From: Anaerolineae bacterium
GTDB lineage: Bacteria > Desulfobacterota > Desulfobacteria > Desulfobacterales > ETH-SRB1
Direction of reading: 5' to 3'
Assembly: GCA_035529315.1 (NCBI GenBank)
Contig: DATKWZ010000006.1
Coordinates: 1 to 64,000 of the forward strand
Length of the DNA: 64,000 nucleotides
Positions 57,036 through 62,722 of this stretch are shown here, piece by piece (the stretch's first letter is position 1; every line of letters starts with the position of its first letter). The notes below the pieces were generated by a model. It was not told the origin of the DNA. It searched no databases and worked only from the letters and a program-made list of their open reading frames with translations. Both the position numbers and the translations under genes were made by a program.

Positions 57036-57173
57036 ATGGCTCTCTCCTCAATGGAAATAAATATTGATTTTAGCCTGATTGTAAAGATATTATATCATCC
57101 CGGCAAAGTTGAAGCCTTTCCAGTCGAGGTGTTTGACATCACAGAGGAGGAACTGAACACTGTCTATGCATGA
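57036..57173 (+). CDS. Possible small protein upstream of the coiled-coil gene
   Basis: 45 residues from ATG 57036 (or 40 from 57051), reading MEINIDFSLIVKILYHPGKV and EAFPVEVFDITEEELNTVYA. No good ribosome-binding site. Its stop overlaps the start of the next gene, and the residue pattern is protein-like, so it may be a real small partner or the remnant of a longer gene. Confidence 0.4.
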   Translation: MALSSMEINIDFSLIVKILYHPGKVEAFPVEVFDITEEELNTVYA

Positions 57174-57882
57174 TGATTTCATCTCCGCATTGACCCGTGA
57201 GGTCAAAGAGGAGGTTATTCAAAATTATCTTTACGAAAGGCGGTTGATAGAAGAACAGATCCACTATGCTGAGGAATTGGCACAGCACGCCGCCCAACTG
57301 CAGGAGATGCTCTTTTGCCGCTTTGCGCGCATGTATGATTTACTTTTTGAAACCGGGTTTATTAACGAATTCGTGAACATTCTTGGGTTAAAGGAACCCC
57401 CTTTTAATGATCGGATCGGCAAAAACTCAAAATGCCGAAAAGATCTCCGGTCTATTAAGGTGCACGGCCTTACCGACAAGGCCAGATTCAGGAAGCTGGC
57501 TTTAGAGGCATATCAGAGGCTGGTTACATGGAATAATAAATATACGGAGGCTCACGAAAATCTTGAAGAGGAATGCAAAGCTGTAAACACCAACCTGGCT
57601 AAATTTGAAAAAAACCACGATCTGCTCACTATTATAAATTTTTTAAGGAGTATGGATGTTGGAAATATTGTAAAAAAGCATTTTATGGGCGAAAATTTTA
57701 CTCCCGAAGAACTTGGCGCAGTTGAAAAAAGCCTTTATTTTAAACCTGTACGAATCGAACAATTCAACCTTATCCAGCCACCACAGCTTCTTGATCCAGA
57801 TGCTGTTCACAAAGAGCTTGGCGCTCTGGCAAACGCTGTACATGCTAAATACAGAAACAGGACAAAAGAGCTGATCAAATAA
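57166..57882 (+). CDS. Hypothetical helical protein
   Basis: 238 residues, no signal peptide or TM. Almost entirely helical, with coiled-coil potential at about 15-50 (YLYERRLIEEQIHYAEELAQ) and 125-155 (YTEAHENLEEECKAVNTNLA). A C-terminal LQ- and P-containing region (FNLIQPPQLLDPDAVHKELG). I do not recognise the family. It ends 7 bp before the convergent amrS gene, with no room for a separate terminator. Confidence 0.65.
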   Translation: MHDDFISALTREVKEEVIQNYLYERRLIEEQIHYAEELAQHAAQLQEMLFCRFARMYDLLFETGFINEFVNILGLKEPPFNDRIGKNSKCRKDLRSIKVHGLTDKARFRKLALEAYQRLVTWNNKYTEAHENLEEECKAVNTNLAKFEKNHDLLTIINFLRSMDVGNIVKKHFMGENFTPEELGAVEKSLYFKPVRIEQFNLIQPPQLLDPDAVHKELGALANAVHAKYRNRTKELIK

Positions 57883-57889
57883 AACCAGA

Positions 57890-59071
57890 TCACACCCATA
57901 CGCCTGGAATAACGCTCTTGCAAAACTTGCATCTATTTCCGGCAAGATTATAAATTGGAATTAAATATCCTTTTCTTTCAACCAATAATTTTCCGCAATT
58001 ATGGCAATAGGTATTGTTACCTTCATGGCCTGGCACATTGCCTACATATACATAACGGATCCCCTCATGCATGGCCAATTCACGAAAGCGGCTCAGGGTA
58101 GATATGGGGGTCGGCGCCAGCCTGTCTAATTTGTATCCGGGGAAAAATCGTAAAAAATGCAACGGATAATCAGGGCCGAGATTTTTGAGAATCCATTCGC
58201 ACATCCTTTTAGCCATATCAGCATCATCAACATATCCCGGAACTACCAGATTAGTCATTTCAAAGTGTACCCCCTGTTCATGCAGTGTCTTAAATGTATT
58301 CAACACCGGCTCAAGCCTGCCGCCGTTTAATTTCCTGTATATGGCATCACTGTATGACTTCAGGTTTACATTGGCTGCGTCCAGAACCTTGCACAACTCC
58401 AGCAGCGGTTTTCTGTTAATGTAGCCGTTCGATATCCACAGGTTATATATGCCCTCCTCCCTAGCGATACGCGCGATGTCGATCATGTATTCAAAAAAGG
58501 TGGTTGGTTCGGAATATGTATATGCTATGGATTCGGCCTTGGCGCGCTTTGCCTCAATCACAACATCCGGCGGGAAAAGCTCGACATGGCGCACCTGCCA
58601 TGGTTTTACCTGAGAAATCTCCCAGTTTTGACAGTTCAAACAGCGGAAATTGCAACCTGTGGTAGCTATGGAAAATGCCCTTGATTTTGGTTTAAAATGG
58701 AAAAGCGGTTTTTTCTCTATTGGATCGACATGCACGCTGCAGGGGTTGCCGTAGGCCAGGCTGTATAATGTTCCGTCAATATTAACTTTACTGCGGCAGA
58801 CGCTTAAATCGCCCGTCGCCAGAACACATCTGTTCGGGCAGATGCCGCATGCCACCCTGTTTTTTTTTAACTTCTTATAAAGAAATCCTTCATGAGACCA
58901 TTTCCATAATTTTGCAGGCGCATCCCCTGTAAACACCTTGCCGCTGATATCAACGGACCCGGATGCCTCGCTATCTGTTACTGCAACAGGCCAAAAGGAA
59001 CGAAAAGGCATGGCAGTTGAAAGAACAGCCGCGCTACAATACAGGAATTTACGTCTGCTTATTTTTCTCAT
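57890..59071 (-). CDS. amrS: AmmeMemoRadiSam radical SAM enzyme with Tat signal
   Basis: 393 residues. The N-terminus MRKISRRKFLYCSAAVLSTA has a perfect twin-arginine motif (SRRKFL, 5-10), so the folded, cofactor-loaded enzyme is predicted to be exported. Cys75, Cys78 and Cys82 (CGICPNRC) plus Cys92 form an extra cluster site; the radical SAM cluster is Cys140, Cys144, Cys147 (CNFRCLNC). Further GNVPGHEGNNTYCHNCG and RCKFCKSV look like a C-terminal zinc ribbon. The family works with AMMECR1 (AmrA) and MEMO (AmrB); the product is unknown. Overlaps the preceding membrane gene by 23 nt. A periplasmic radical SAM enzyme would be exceptional, since SAM and reductant are cytosolic. Confidence 0.88.
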   Translation of the reverse strand: MRKISRRKFLYCSAAVLSTAMPFRSFWPVAVTDSEASGSVDISGKVFTGDAPAKLWKWSHEGFLYKKLKKNRVACGICPNRCVLATGDLSVCRSKVNIDGTLYSLAYGNPCSVHVDPIEKKPLFHFKPKSRAFSIATTGCNFRCLNCQNWEISQVKPWQVRHVELFPPDVVIEAKRAKAESIAYTYSEPTTFFEYMIDIARIAREEGIYNLWISNGYINRKPLLELCKVLDAANVNLKSYSDAIYRKLNGGRLEPVLNTFKTLHEQGVHFEMTNLVVPGYVDDADMAKRMCEWILKNLGPDYPLHFLRFFPGYKLDRLAPTPISTLSRFRELAMHEGIRYVYVGNVPGHEGNNTYCHNCGKLLVERKGYLIPIYNLAGNRCKFCKSVIPGVWV

Positions 59072-61178
59072 GTCTTGTCGCCATAATAGTTAAGCTTGTG
59101 AGTTTCAGGCCGATTAATCCCGTCGTGGCCCATACAATGCCAAGGTATGGAATAAGCACCACGCTGGTAAACAGAGTGCCAAAGGCGGCGCCTATCAAGT
59201 CAGCGGAAAAGGCTCGTGTAAACACACGATTATCACCGCCTCTTAAACGAAGCGCAACAGGAAATTGAAAACCGCATATCAAAGAAATCACAAATCCAAA
59301 CAAAAGAAATAAAACAACCGGCAACCGGTCTCCGCCATACTTAATGGCCAGAATAAAAAACCCCAAAAGGATAATCAGCAGGCTGTCTGCAATTATCAGC
59401 ATCTGTTTCCCTTGGCCACGTAGTTTTTCACCAAACCAGGCGCCGGGCAGCAGGCCGGCTAAAAAAACGGTTATGATCAAGCCTATCTGAAAATAAATAT
59501 AACCGAAAAAAATCTGAAAAGCAAAAACAACCAGGATTTCGCTGCCCATGGTCATGCAGCCGGTTGAAAAGAGAACAAACTCTTCTGCTTTAATAAAGAA
59601 CATATATATTAAAAGCAAAATTGTCAGGCCGACGATGAATCGATTCGGGGATGTGGAGAATTCGGCAAACCACTGTGAAAACATCAATCGTATCAACAGG
59701 GGGGATTCGTCGATGTTTTTAGGGGCGCCTGAATCGAGCAGATTGTTTAATCCCGCTATTTTCTCGTTTGTCATATTGCCGTAATAAAAGCCGCTGATGT
59801 AAGAGGTTTGAATCCCTTTTTCAAGAAGACACGCGGGAATATCCGTCCTGATCGGGCGGTTGCCGCACAGAAAAAAAATCTTTTGCCCCGGCAGCAGCAA
59901 AACATGGTCAAAATACTCTGACACGGTATTATACAGGGAAGAGATCTTTTGGCGCTGGGTTTCGGCAAGGTAGCTGTCAAATCCCCGCACTGAAAAACTT
60001 AATATTCCCGAGCCTGCAAGATGTTGCTTTGCCAGAGCAAAAAAGCGGGTTGTAAAAAACCGGTTTATTTGAAAAGTTTCAGGTTCAGGCAGATTGACTA
60101 TTATAGCGTCATAGATTTCATCAGATTTTGTCAGGTATGCCCTGGCATCTTGATGAATAACGTGCAAACCCGGAATATCCTTTATCAGACCAAACCTGAA
60201 CAAAGCAGAGCTAACCTCTGGATCAAGCTCAACATAATCTATGCGTGCGAGCCGGTATTTTTGCAATTCCTCAATCATCCCGCCTTGAGCCGAAATTATC
60301 AGAATTTTCCGGGGATCGGTTGATTGTGCCATTGGATAATGAATCGTTTCTTCCGCCATGGTCAGGTTGTGGCTGCTAAACACAGGTGTACCGTCCATAA
60401 ACAGAGTAAACTGGTCATTATCTTTATAGACGGCTATGCGGCCGTATCTGGATTCGCTATAATATATTGGTTCGCCTTTGAAGCCGGCAAGTGATGCCGG
60501 CTCCATAAAAATACCGGCCAGAAGAATTGCGATGGCCAGCCCTGTGCCAATGAAAACAGATAGATGATACCGTTGGATGGAGATAAATAGAAAACAGGTT
60601 GCCGCCAACAGCGGGAGGTTGGACAGAAAAACCGCCTGCAAAGGGGTCGCGAGATAAATCAGTATAAATGAAAACAGAGCGCCGCCTGCCACATTACCGA
60701 TATTGTCTGTCATGTATATGAATGCCCCGGGATAATCCGGTTTTTCAAGCCTGAGCACAAAGAGGCTATATGGAAGGATAAAGCCAAGCAGCAGTCCGTA
60801 AGGGGCAATTGTAATAAAGGTATATGTCAGGGTTGGGTAAAATCCGACCGAAGCGCCGTGAATAAAAAAATAATCACGCAGACCGCGGATGGCCATGATT
60901 TGCAAGGTTGGAACACAGGCCAGGCAGAAGGAAAGCCAGCCAAGCCGGTAGGCTGTGGGCCGCCAAAAGCCTTTAATTGCCAGATGAGCCAGAAGGGTGC
61001 CGATCCCGCCGATAATAAGCCAGTTAAAAAGAATCAGGGCAATGACAAACTCGTTTCCCTGAAATTGAGCCAGAAATTCGCGGATGATCAATAATTGAGT
61101 TACCACAGAAGAAATGCCTGTGGCAATGACCACCAGAGTTATGGCTCGTTCACTTTTTCTCTTCAAAATATTGAACAT
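59049..61178 (-). CDS. Multi-TM protein with a spermidine-synthase-like domain
   Basis: About 709 residues from ATG 61178 (or 722 from 61217, which would overlap the previous gene by 68 nt). Six TM helices (about 15-225), a soluble spermidine-synthase-like domain (about 240-480; ILIISAQGGMIEELQKYRLA; DYVELDPEV; DAIIVNLPEPETFQINRFF) and six more TM helices (about 510-700). The SAM-binding glycine loop (GGGDG in true synthases) is SAQGG, and the catalytic Asp position after DAIIV is Asn, so polyamine synthesis is doubtful. Overlaps both neighbours (29 nt with AmrBA, 23 nt with AmrS): tight translational coupling, so it should serve the same pathway. Confidence 0.8.
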   Translation of the reverse strand: MFNILKRKSERAITLVVIATGISSVVTQLLIIREFLAQFQGNEFVIALILFNWLIIGGIGTLLAHLAIKGFWRPTAYRLGWLSFCLACVPTLQIMAIRGLRDYFFIHGASVGFYPTLTYTFITIAPYGLLLGFILPYSLFVLRLEKPDYPGAFIYMTDNIGNVAGGALFSFILIYLATPLQAVFLSNLPLLAATCFLFISIQRYHLSVFIGTGLAIAILLAGIFMEPASLAGFKGEPIYYSESRYGRIAVYKDNDQFTLFMDGTPVFSSHNLTMAEETIHYPMAQSTDPRKILIISAQGGMIEELQKYRLARIDYVELDPEVSSALFRFGLIKDIPGLHVIHQDARAYLTKSDEIYDAIIVNLPEPETFQINRFFTTRFFALAKQHLAGSGILSFSVRGFDSYLAETQRQKISSLYNTVSEYFDHVLLLPGQKIFFLCGNRPIRTDIPACLLEKGIQTSYISGFYYGNMTNEKIAGLNNLLDSGAPKNIDESPLLIRLMFSQWFAEFSTSPNRFIVGLTILLLIYMFFIKAEEFVLFSTGCMTMGSEILVVFAFQIFFGYIYFQIGLIITVFLAGLLPGAWFGEKLRGQGKQMLIIADSLLIILLGFFILAIKYGGDRLPVVLFLLFGFVISLICGFQFPVALRLRGGDNRVFTRAFSADLIGAAFGTLFTSVVLIPYLGIVWATTGLIGLKLTSLTIMATRHEKNKQT

Positions 61179-62643
61179 GGTAAGTCGATATTTCCAGCCT
61201 GGTGTTTTCCCATGCATTGGCCGACAGTCCGGCCTTTACACATAAATGGGAAAGAAACTTTTCCGGTCGTGGAAGCTGTTCCCAGACCTGGGGCAAAAAC
61301 GTGGCTCCGGCCCTCCCTTTTCGAAGAATAACTCCGTCGACATTGACTCTCAGCTTGGAGATCAAATCCGCACCGTCAATGTATTCGAGAGGCTGAGGAT
61401 TAGTCAAAATGCTGATTTCTATGTCCACATCCTCTATTTCTTCAACAGTTACAGGAGAAAAACGAGGGTCATGAAACGCTGCGCTGACGGCATTGTGCTT
61501 TACCCCGTCAACAATCGATTCTTCCGCTGCCAGGCTTCCGATGCAACCACGCAAATCGCCGCCAATCTTAAGGGTTACAAAAGTGCCGCGGAGAGCCTTA
61601 AGCGTTTCATCCTTAACGGCAGCCACCATTAAATCCGATTCTTTATCGGAAATTTCCAATCCCAGTCTTTGCATAATGGTTTGCCTGGCCAGTTTAACCA
61701 GAGCCTGTCCAAGTCGCGAATCAATTTGCTGGTGATTATGTTTTTTTTGCATAGATGAATCTCCATAAAATGCGATTGCCGCATAACCGACAACCTGTGA
61801 ACGTCCTCCAGCAGTGTCCCCGCTGTTTGAATAATGAAGAAGAACCGGTTTCCAGCCATGTTTTGCGGCCATTTCAAGCACGATTAGAACAGGTATTATG
61901 CCGCATGCGCGATTGCTGCTTTTTAACAGCTTATCAGATTCCATGTTTAAAATCATATTAATTGTTTCTCTGTCTCTTTTAACGGCTTCAGGGTATGAAA
62001 GGTAGTGAGACAGATCCGAACTTGCTACCAGGAGTGTTTTTTCATCAATTACAGACTTAATTGCGTGAGACAGCAATTTTACATCGGTCCGGCCGGTAAC
62101 AATCGGTATTATTTCGAATTTATTCAGATAACGCTGAAGAAACGGCAGAACAACCTCCAATGAGTGTTCAAGCCTGTCAGAGTCTGGAATAGATTGAAAC
62201 AGATCGGGATTTGCGCGCAATTTTGCTGAATCATCATTCAGTCTGACAAGGCCGAGCACGGTTTCATAGGCATCTGCATTGGTTATTGCGCAGTTATTAA
62301 AACCAATCTTATGATCCGGCCCCATCAAAATAACCCTGTCAAATTGATTTTTTCTTAATACAAGCGAGGCATGAGTTGCCGTAAGCCCGGAATAAATATA
62401 CCCTGCATGCGGCAGTATCAGAGCTTTAAGCTGTTTATCAGGAGGGATCTGAATGGATGTTTGTTTTGCCTGAAACGTCAAACTGTCAATCGTTTGCTCC
62501 AATTCAGACCGTGAAGCAGGATAGAAACGGCCCGCTGCTACAGCCTTACGGATACCGGCGGCACAAACGGTTTTGGCAGGCAATATAAGTATAAGGCAAC
62601 CGGCCAAAAGAATTAATAAGATATAATTGAAAAGCTGTTTCAT
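61150..62643 (-). CDS. Exported AmrB-AmrA fusion (MEMO-AMMECR1)
   Basis: 497 residues. N-terminal signal (NYILLILLAGCLILILPAKT), cleaved near CAAG or lipidated at Cys16 (LAGC). Residues 30-297 are a MEMO-family domain with metal ligands at His79 (LPHAGY), His111 (MGPDH) and Cys247 (NRACG), the same 32-residue spacing between the two His as in human MEMO1. Residues 308-495 are an AMMECR1 domain with LRGCIGS (364-370). The two are separate genes in many genomes, so this is a fusion. The ATG lies only 4 nt after the CCA end of tRNA-Val, with no ribosome-binding site. First gene of the amr operon. Confidence 0.88.
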   Translation of the reverse strand: MKQLFNYILLILLAGCLILILPAKTVCAAGIRKAVAAGRFYPASRSELEQTIDSLTFQAKQTSIQIPPDKQLKALILPHAGYIYSGLTATHASLVLRKNQFDRVILMGPDHKIGFNNCAITNADAYETVLGLVRLNDDSAKLRANPDLFQSIPDSDRLEHSLEVVLPFLQRYLNKFEIIPIVTGRTDVKLLSHAIKSVIDEKTLLVASSDLSHYLSYPEAVKRDRETINMILNMESDKLLKSSNRACGIIPVLIVLEMAAKHGWKPVLLHYSNSGDTAGGRSQVVGYAAIAFYGDSSMQKKHNHQQIDSRLGQALVKLARQTIMQRLGLEISDKESDLMVAAVKDETLKALRGTFVTLKIGGDLRGCIGSLAAEESIVDGVKHNAVSAAFHDPRFSPVTVEEIEDVDIEISILTNPQPLEYIDGADLISKLRVNVDGVILRKGRAGATFLPQVWEQLPRPEKFLSHLCVKAGLSANAWENTRLEISTYHVQYFEEKK

Positions 62644-62647
62644 GTTA

Positions 62648-62722
62648 TGGTAGGCACGGTTGGATTTGAACCAACGACTTCTACCGTGTCAGGGTAGCGC
62701 TCTCCCCCTGAGCTACGTGCCT
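62648..62722 (-). tRNA. tRNA-Val (anticodon GAC)
   Basis: 75 nt with encoded CCA. Acceptor AGGCACG/CGTGCCT, D-stem GCTC/GAGC, anticodon stem CTACC/GGTAG with loop CTGACAC (GAC at 34-36, codons GUC/GUU), T-arm GTTGG-TTCAAAT-CCAAC. The AmrB-AmrA start codon follows its 3' end by 4 nt. Confidence 0.95.

Follow-up and report, generated by a model that had tools for sequence, protein, structure and literature searches.

An AmmeMemoRadiSam operon with export signals and a membrane partner with a spermidine-synthase-fold domain is a candidate for radical SAM chemistry outside the cytoplasm

The 64,000-nucleotide stretch of DNA analysed here (the window; positions 1 to 64,000 of the forward strand of contig DATKWZ010000006.1, assembly GCA_035529315.1, deposited as Anaerolineae bacterium and assigned by GTDB to the Desulfobacterales lineage ETH-SRB1) carries an operon whose products we propose to perform radical S-adenosylmethionine (SAM) chemistry on the outer face of the cytoplasmic membrane. 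The operon encodes a fusion of AmrB and AmrA (AmrB-A), a membrane protein to which we gave the working name SPD, and the radical SAM enzyme AmrS. According to this proposal, to which we assign a probability of roughly 0.6, SPD would supply or use SAM and AmrB-A would be the partner or substrate of AmrS; the broader statement, that SAM-dependent chemistry takes place outside the cytoplasm, is held with the same confidence. SAM and low-potential electrons are cytosolic, and radical SAM enzymes are hence regarded as cytosolic. The three-component AmmeMemoRadiSam system itself is already known; the window carries a variant with export signals and the SPD partner, and computation shows these signals, the fold and topology of SPD and an active site that is conserved. 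The three genes overlap and lie on one strand, as follows.

61150..62643, minus strand: AmrB-AmrA fusion (MEMO + AMMECR1), 497 aa, predicted to be secreted; TIGR04336 234 bits, TIGR04335 198 bits
59049..61217, minus strand: SPD, membrane protein of the major facilitator superfamily (MFS) fold with an inserted spermidine-synthase-fold domain, as assigned from profiles, AlphaFold2 and loop charges
57890..59071, minus strand: AmrS, AmmeMemoRadiSam radical SAM enzyme, 393 aa, of the type exported by twin-arginine translocation (Tat)

The original prediction described an operon of three overlapping genes in fixed order, and the coordinates and shared strand agree with it, the same order being kept in relatives. 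AmrB, AmrA and AmrS occur together at the locus, each above its curated NCBIfam cut-off (234 versus 26, 198 versus 99 and, for TIGR04337, 333 versus 220 bits), which confirmed the assignment of AmrS as the AmmeMemoRadiSam radical SAM enzyme and, together with Pfam matches to the MEMO (170 bits) and AMMECR1 (165 bits) domains, the fusion of AmrB to AmrA. The nearest named relative of AmrS belongs to Desulfobacteraceae bacterium Eth-SRB1 (87% identity), a best hit that would place the window, from a bacterium of sulfate-reducer type, in this branch of the Desulfobacterales. The operon shares with AmmeMemoRadiSam (TIGR04335, TIGR04336, TIGR04337) all three components, with cluster cysteines and SAM-site residues intact. 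In contrast, the family models describe no export signals, no A-B fusion and no MFS/spermidine-synthase-like protein, all of which the window operon has. No report of an exported AmmeMemoRadiSam system or of a Tat-exported radical SAM enzyme was found in the open-access literature, which is weak evidence, as subscription papers and preprints lay outside the search.

The export signal of AmrS was analysed by alignment with homologues.

58994..59071, minus strand: Tat signal of AmrS; RR at residues 6-7 (bases 59051-59056), h-region helix 6-19, disordered linker 21-37

The Tat motif claimed for AmrS, S-R-R-K-F-L, was found at residues 5-10. Among 23 aligned homologues with identity down to 60%, R6, R7 and F9 were the sole invariant positions of the first 50, the remaining signal drifting while RR and F stay, and RR stands at the identical position in the window-type rows. 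Two traits of Tat substrates, the S-R-R-x-F-L-K-like motif and a moderately hydrophobic stretch, are both kept in homologues; the genome encodes TatC (254 bits), and inspection of 30 of its radical SAM genes showed a Tat signal on AmrS alone. An automatic Tat flag on another locus (L194) was rejected by visual inspection. We also considered whether the export signals could be chance or artefacts of misplaced starts. The AmrS reading frame begins just 6 codons ahead of the ATG, and many homologues have an in-frame stop a few codons before the shared MKK/MRK start, so that the start is secure. Furthermore, RR is invariant though the N-terminus around it drifts, and signal-less paralogues in the same genomes begin at the enzyme core; one of these is the second AmrS of the window genome (a 345-codon frame on contig C37). 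A misplaced AmrS start was therefore rejected, and artefact, for which nothing was found to speak, is a negligible explanation of the signals. Loss of the signals on alignment, named with the original prediction as a refuting outcome, did not occur, since they persist on AmrS and AmrB-A alike across divergent homologues.

The fusion protein shows the following features.

62557..62643, minus strand: Sec-type signal peptide of AmrB-A, about residues 1-29, ...TVCA|AG; hydrophobic
61774..62541, minus strand: MEMO (LigB-like) domain, ligand motifs intact; PDB relatives 3bcz, 7kq8
61165..61698, minus strand: AMMECR1 domain with LRGCIGS; PDB relatives 1wsc, 1zq7

The hydrophobic N-terminus of AmrB-A is of Sec type and is retained in homologues; nearly all AmrB-A proteins neighbouring an exported AmrS have such a signal-type N-terminus. 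The MEMO ligands and the AMMECR1 motif had been described as intact, and PHAGY, GPDH, SSDLSH, ACG and LRGCIGS are indeed all present. A second MEMO protein in the genome (contig C22) is without a signal, and the single AMMECR1 copy is that in the fusion. From these signals we predict that AmrS and AmrB-A very probably lie outside the cytoplasm. If true, the exported set would open a way to study what MEMO and AMMECR1 do; both have human relatives tied to disease (for AMMECR1, PMC5502304). Elsewhere, an SPD-type membrane protein (L209:6753-10304, minus strand) stands beside a signal-bearing AmrB only, AmrA and AmrS being absent from the fetched stretch.

The catalytic core of AmrS was then compared between exported and signal-less proteins.

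58631..58654, minus strand: radical SAM CxxxCxxC (C140, C144, C147), invariant in 93/93 exported and 40/40 signal-less rows
57920..58006, minus strand: C-terminal Cys pairs (C356, C359, C381, C384)

The window protein has the CxxxCxxC motif and the remaining conserved cysteines, and the SAM-site positions checked (T185, Y186, E188, K238 and others) are invariant or nearly so across the 93 exported rows, and likewise in the signal-less rows. In the AlphaFold2 model (pLDDT 92) the signal helix and disordered linker are followed by a compact enzyme, whose best match among solved structures is the pyruvate formate-lyase (PFL) activating enzyme with AdoMet (3cb8; Foldseek E 5.6e-16). AmrS shares the radical SAM core of this enzyme (3cb8, 3c8f), its nearest solved fold, and differs from it by two added Cys4 regions, one N-terminal and one C-terminal, and by the Tat signal; moreover, the window operon contains no glycyl-radical enzyme. 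SAM is not known to occur outside the cytoplasm, and this speaks for the idea that exported AmrS gave up radical SAM catalysis and now carries electrons on its iron-sulfur clusters or has a structural role. However, an exported AmrS in a SAM-free place would be expected to lose active-site residues, and the three cluster cysteines and SAM-site residues are kept instead. Together with the match to an AdoMet-containing structure, this makes loss of catalysis very improbable.

SPD consists of two membrane halves around a soluble domain.

60492..61157, minus strand: SPD transmembrane (TM) helices TM1-TM7 (AlphaFold2 model helices 8-229; hydrophobicity)
59739..60473, minus strand: soluble domain of SPD with spermidine-synthase fold, predicted to lie outside the cytoplasm; retains E330 and D357 but not the acidic GxG(D/E)G residue
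59076..59648, minus strand: SPD helices TM8-TM14 (AlphaFold2 model helices 511-701)

The original prediction called this a 12-TM protein. The AlphaFold2 model (pLDDT 87) and profile searches instead concur on seven helices, a 245-residue spermidine-synthase-fold domain and seven further helices, and a plain 12-TM transporter was rejected on account of the inserted domain and the 14 helices. Translation of SPD probably starts at 61178 rather than 61217. The membrane part adopts the MFS fold over both halves (VMAT2 Z 28.9, NarK Z 28.2; VIA-align, ~350 residues, model 3-707) and contains conserved intramembrane polar residues. Positive loop charges favour an N-terminus-in topology in 56/56 homologues, and by the positive-inside distribution the soluble domain very probably faces outside. 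The protein matches Spermine_synth (PF01564, E 4e-12), and its soluble domain has the fold of spermidine synthase/SpeE (1uir, 3anx; Z 26.9 to TtSpeE) with the adenosine-binding acidic residues kept (E330 in 52/56 and D357 in 55/56 homologues). In contrast to SpeE, the GxG(D/E)G acid that serves decarboxylated SAM in the synthase is replaced by Gly312 in the window protein (31/56 homologues have Gly here and just a few an acid), and the catalytic Asp of IIVDxxDP is Asn375 (Asp in 7/56). With both residues lost, an active aminopropyltransferase is unlikely, and SPD scores far under the cut-off of the membrane-fused polyamine aminopropyltransferase PRK03612 (120 versus 472 bits).

A similar arrangement is found in NHMT (AN4663), a fungal seven-transmembrane N-terminal histidine methyltransferase that resides in the endoplasmic reticulum (ER), methylates secreted lytic polysaccharide monooxygenases and has 7 TM helices followed by a spermidine-synthase-like domain with a non-acidic GxG(D/E)G residue (PMC10349129). 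Judged by this published layout, SPD is alike in its first seven helices, its spermidine-synthase-like domain predicted to face outward and its non-acidic motif residue. It differs in that it has a second 7-TM half and the MFS fold and is encoded in a bacterial radical SAM operon. According to the NHMT authors, SAM may be in limiting supply in the ER, whereas the Golgi is served by SAM transporters (PMC10349129). Since the adenosine-holding acidic residues are kept while most homologues have lost the GxG(D/E)G acid and the catalytic Asp, and given the NHMT parallel, the SPD domain probably binds SAM instead of forming polyamines. SAM transport and methyl transfer are both advanced here, on an equal footing, as tentative functions of SPD. 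The NHMT layout, the non-acidic motif residue in most of the 56 homologues and the retained acidic residues for ribose and adenine would also fit a scheme in which SPD is mainly an extracytoplasmic methyltransferase that modifies AmrB-A or the same substrate, with AmrS as its partner and not its client; yet a simple anchor would need neither a full MFS fold with its second set of seven helices nor polar residues conserved inside the membrane. We consider this scheme possible, but would not favour it.

To investigate how AmrS and SPD are distributed, we searched 94 related genomes, which contained two AmrS kinds, a long one matching residues 1-393 and a short one beginning at about residue 60. 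Window-type SPD was present in 34/34 genomes with window-type AmrS; in three genomes (G077, G035, G068) the two genes are unlinked, yet both are present, and one further genome, 77% complete, has window-type SPD alone. At the level of neighbourhoods, SPD lies within 5 kb of 57/76 signal-bearing AmrS loci versus 2/30 signal-less loci, counts which we take as descriptions and not as probabilities because related loci are not independent. One of the two signal-less exceptions (L103) has a TRKEFL variant of the motif, and in the other (L145) AmrS is cut at the contig start. A scan of named genomes with inspection of N-termini identified exported AmrS in metagenome-assembled genomes (MAGs) labelled Desulfobacterota, Bacteroidota, Omnitrophota, Auribacterota, Myxococcota, Planctomycetota, Lentisphaerota, KSB1, Latescibacterota, Thermoanaerobaculales and others; these proteins have an RR or KR Tat motif or, in the Omnitrophota case, a membrane anchor at the N-terminus. 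The proteins were sampled by similarity to the window AmrS, and proportions among them are therefore no census. In an IQ-TREE phylogeny, exported AmrS together with a few signal-less rows formed one supported group of 53/68 rows (98/93) with 3 label changes, and FastTree on 134 AmrS rows gave 5 changes of export label; the signal-less Bacteroidota rows look like signal losses. The exported system was also seen in two archaea-labelled MAGs (L106, L122), which may reflect real transfer or mis-binning.

Three SPD-type proteins without a nearby AmrS directly adjoin a radical SAM enzyme of a second, PflX-like family, in which the twin-arginine signal is again invariant. This family, which we take to be COG1313-like, scores under all AmrS and PFLA cut-offs.

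L208:6584-7684 (+); L211:3923-4990 (-); L207:6459-7556 (-); L221-L247: PflX-like Tat-exported radical SAM enzymes

In a phylum search for relatives, many of them from Desulfobacterota, the long proteins had a Tat signal and the short ones had none. Tat-bearing PflX-like loci had an SPD neighbour in 8/27 and an AmrS neighbour in 10/27 cases, the latter with an RR or KR signal in all ten, and one locus (L283) combines the PflX-like enzyme, AmrS and SPD. Among 20 signal-less PflX-like loci, neither SPD (0/20) nor AmrS (0/20) was found as a neighbour. This second association with exported radical SAM enzymes argues that SPD serves SAM chemistry itself, and the pairing with two radical SAM families points to a shared need rather than to the shared methylation target that a methyltransferase role of SPD would imply.

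Candidate electron relays accompany exported AmrS in some lineages. The gene directly upstream of membrane-anchored AmrS encodes DsbD_2 + FMN_bind + Fer4_5 at three loci (L121, L123, L127) and FMN_bind + Fer4_5 without the DsbD part at a fourth (L136); a DsbD_2 gene follows AmrB-A at two others (L115, L117), and in a Lentisphaeria MAG (L133:7140-9002, +) a DsbD_2 transmembrane electron-transfer region is fused with AmrS in a single frame. Eight exported AmrS proteins (L071, L072, L073, L079, L080, L081, L083, L084) have the c-type haem motif CxxCH between Tat signal and core, and a DUF362 protein adjoins five more exported loci. This suggests lineage-specific routes for bringing electrons out. 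The FMN_bind, Fer4_5 and DsbD-type proteins share their domains with flavinylated extracytosolic electron-transfer systems (PMC8238504), for which the main text makes no mention of radical SAM targets.

Altogether, the envelope-facing system of the original prediction is supported as a prediction, as signals are kept on AmrS and AmrB-A and the SPD domain, too, is predicted to face outward. The puzzle raised there, how an exported AmrS would obtain SAM and a reductant, is answered in part, by an MFS/spermidine-synthase-like partner and, in some lineages only, by transmembrane electron relays. We propose that AmrS would fold and gain its iron-sulfur clusters in the cytoplasm, after which Tat would move the finished enzyme over the inner membrane, while AmrB-A would be exported through Sec. 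SPD, a permease of MFS fold, would remain in the inner membrane with its SAM-binding-type domain on the outer face, where it may bring SAM (or take away the spent nucleoside) and/or itself use SAM as a methyltransferase. AmrS would then generate 5'-deoxyadenosyl-radical chemistry outside, on a substrate handled by, or identical with, AmrB-A, using electrons from a periplasmic or membrane relay that may differ by lineage. We infer the actual location of the proteins, the presence of SAM outside, the electron donor in this organism and the substrate.

As the chief alternative, AmrS may act in the cytoplasm and be exported afterwards, or remain anchored by an uncleaved Tat signal, with AmrB-A modified before its passage through Sec; the Tat route would then be used because AmrS carries clusters. 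Besides the cytosolic occurrence of SAM and low-potential reductant in known biology, this would be consistent with the window AmrS signal, which is without a clear AxA cleavage site (an AxA-type site stands right behind the hydrophobic stretch in 13/33 window-type proteins), and with Bacteroidota, in which a cytoplasmic AmrS could serve an exported AmrB-A. The strict coupling of the outward SPD domain with exported AmrS, the DsbD/FMN/ferredoxin relays and CxxCH motifs that go with it, and the retention of export throughout a clade covering many phyla argue against cytoplasmic action, which we regard as unlikely.

Several observations count against chemistry on the outer face. At six Bacteroidota loci (L128, L129, L149, L150, L163, L176) AmrB-A has a signal and AmrS has none, so that AmrS and AmrB-A would not lie in one compartment in every lineage. 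SPD does not adjoin 19/76 exported AmrS, some of them near contig ends, and the tree holds just 2-3 independent changes of export label, so that p-values of the Fisher test on neighbourhoods overstate independence. A search for FMN_bind in the window genome found none; neither a flavin relay of the kind seen in the flavinylated systems nor another electron donor was found in this organism. Finally, the location of the exported set is a computational prediction, and its activity and the presence of SAM outside are putative.

If outer-face chemistry is true, cells would have access to SAM beyond the cytoplasm and would draw on it there for radical reactions, which had been thought to be intracellular only; the exported design recurs over many phyla and, besides AmrS, in another family of enzymes. 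It is tempting to speculate that such chemistry is general in many anaerobes, with AmrS and the PflX-like enzymes sharing a SAM-supplying SPD and drawing on lineage-specific relays.

Signal-less AmrS was found in other surroundings. At seven loci (L076:8459-11714, L085, L086, L087, L089, L091, L092) it stands beside a methyltransferase, a UbiA prenyltransferase and a UbiX-like flavoprotein, in some cases also with UbiD, and this quinone-biosynthesis-type context may hint at a cytosolic role of that AmrS. In Prevotella and relatives (L149, L150, L163, L173, L176) a short AmrS has neither the signal nor the C-terminal Cys4 region, and in most of these the fused AmrB-A resembles a lipoprotein or secreted protein. 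A reading of the window genes as defence genes, from PADLOC matches (viperin E 9e-4, mad2 E 2e-7), was rejected since these reflect shared radical SAM and Rossmann folds. Next to the operon, a 238-aa protein at 57166-57882 (+), convergent with AmrS, gave no match in Pfam and NCBIfam and is kept in relatives (L037-L041). On the other side lies the following gene.

62651..62722, minus strand: tRNA gene directly upstream of AmrB-A (Rfam RF00005, 70.6 bits)

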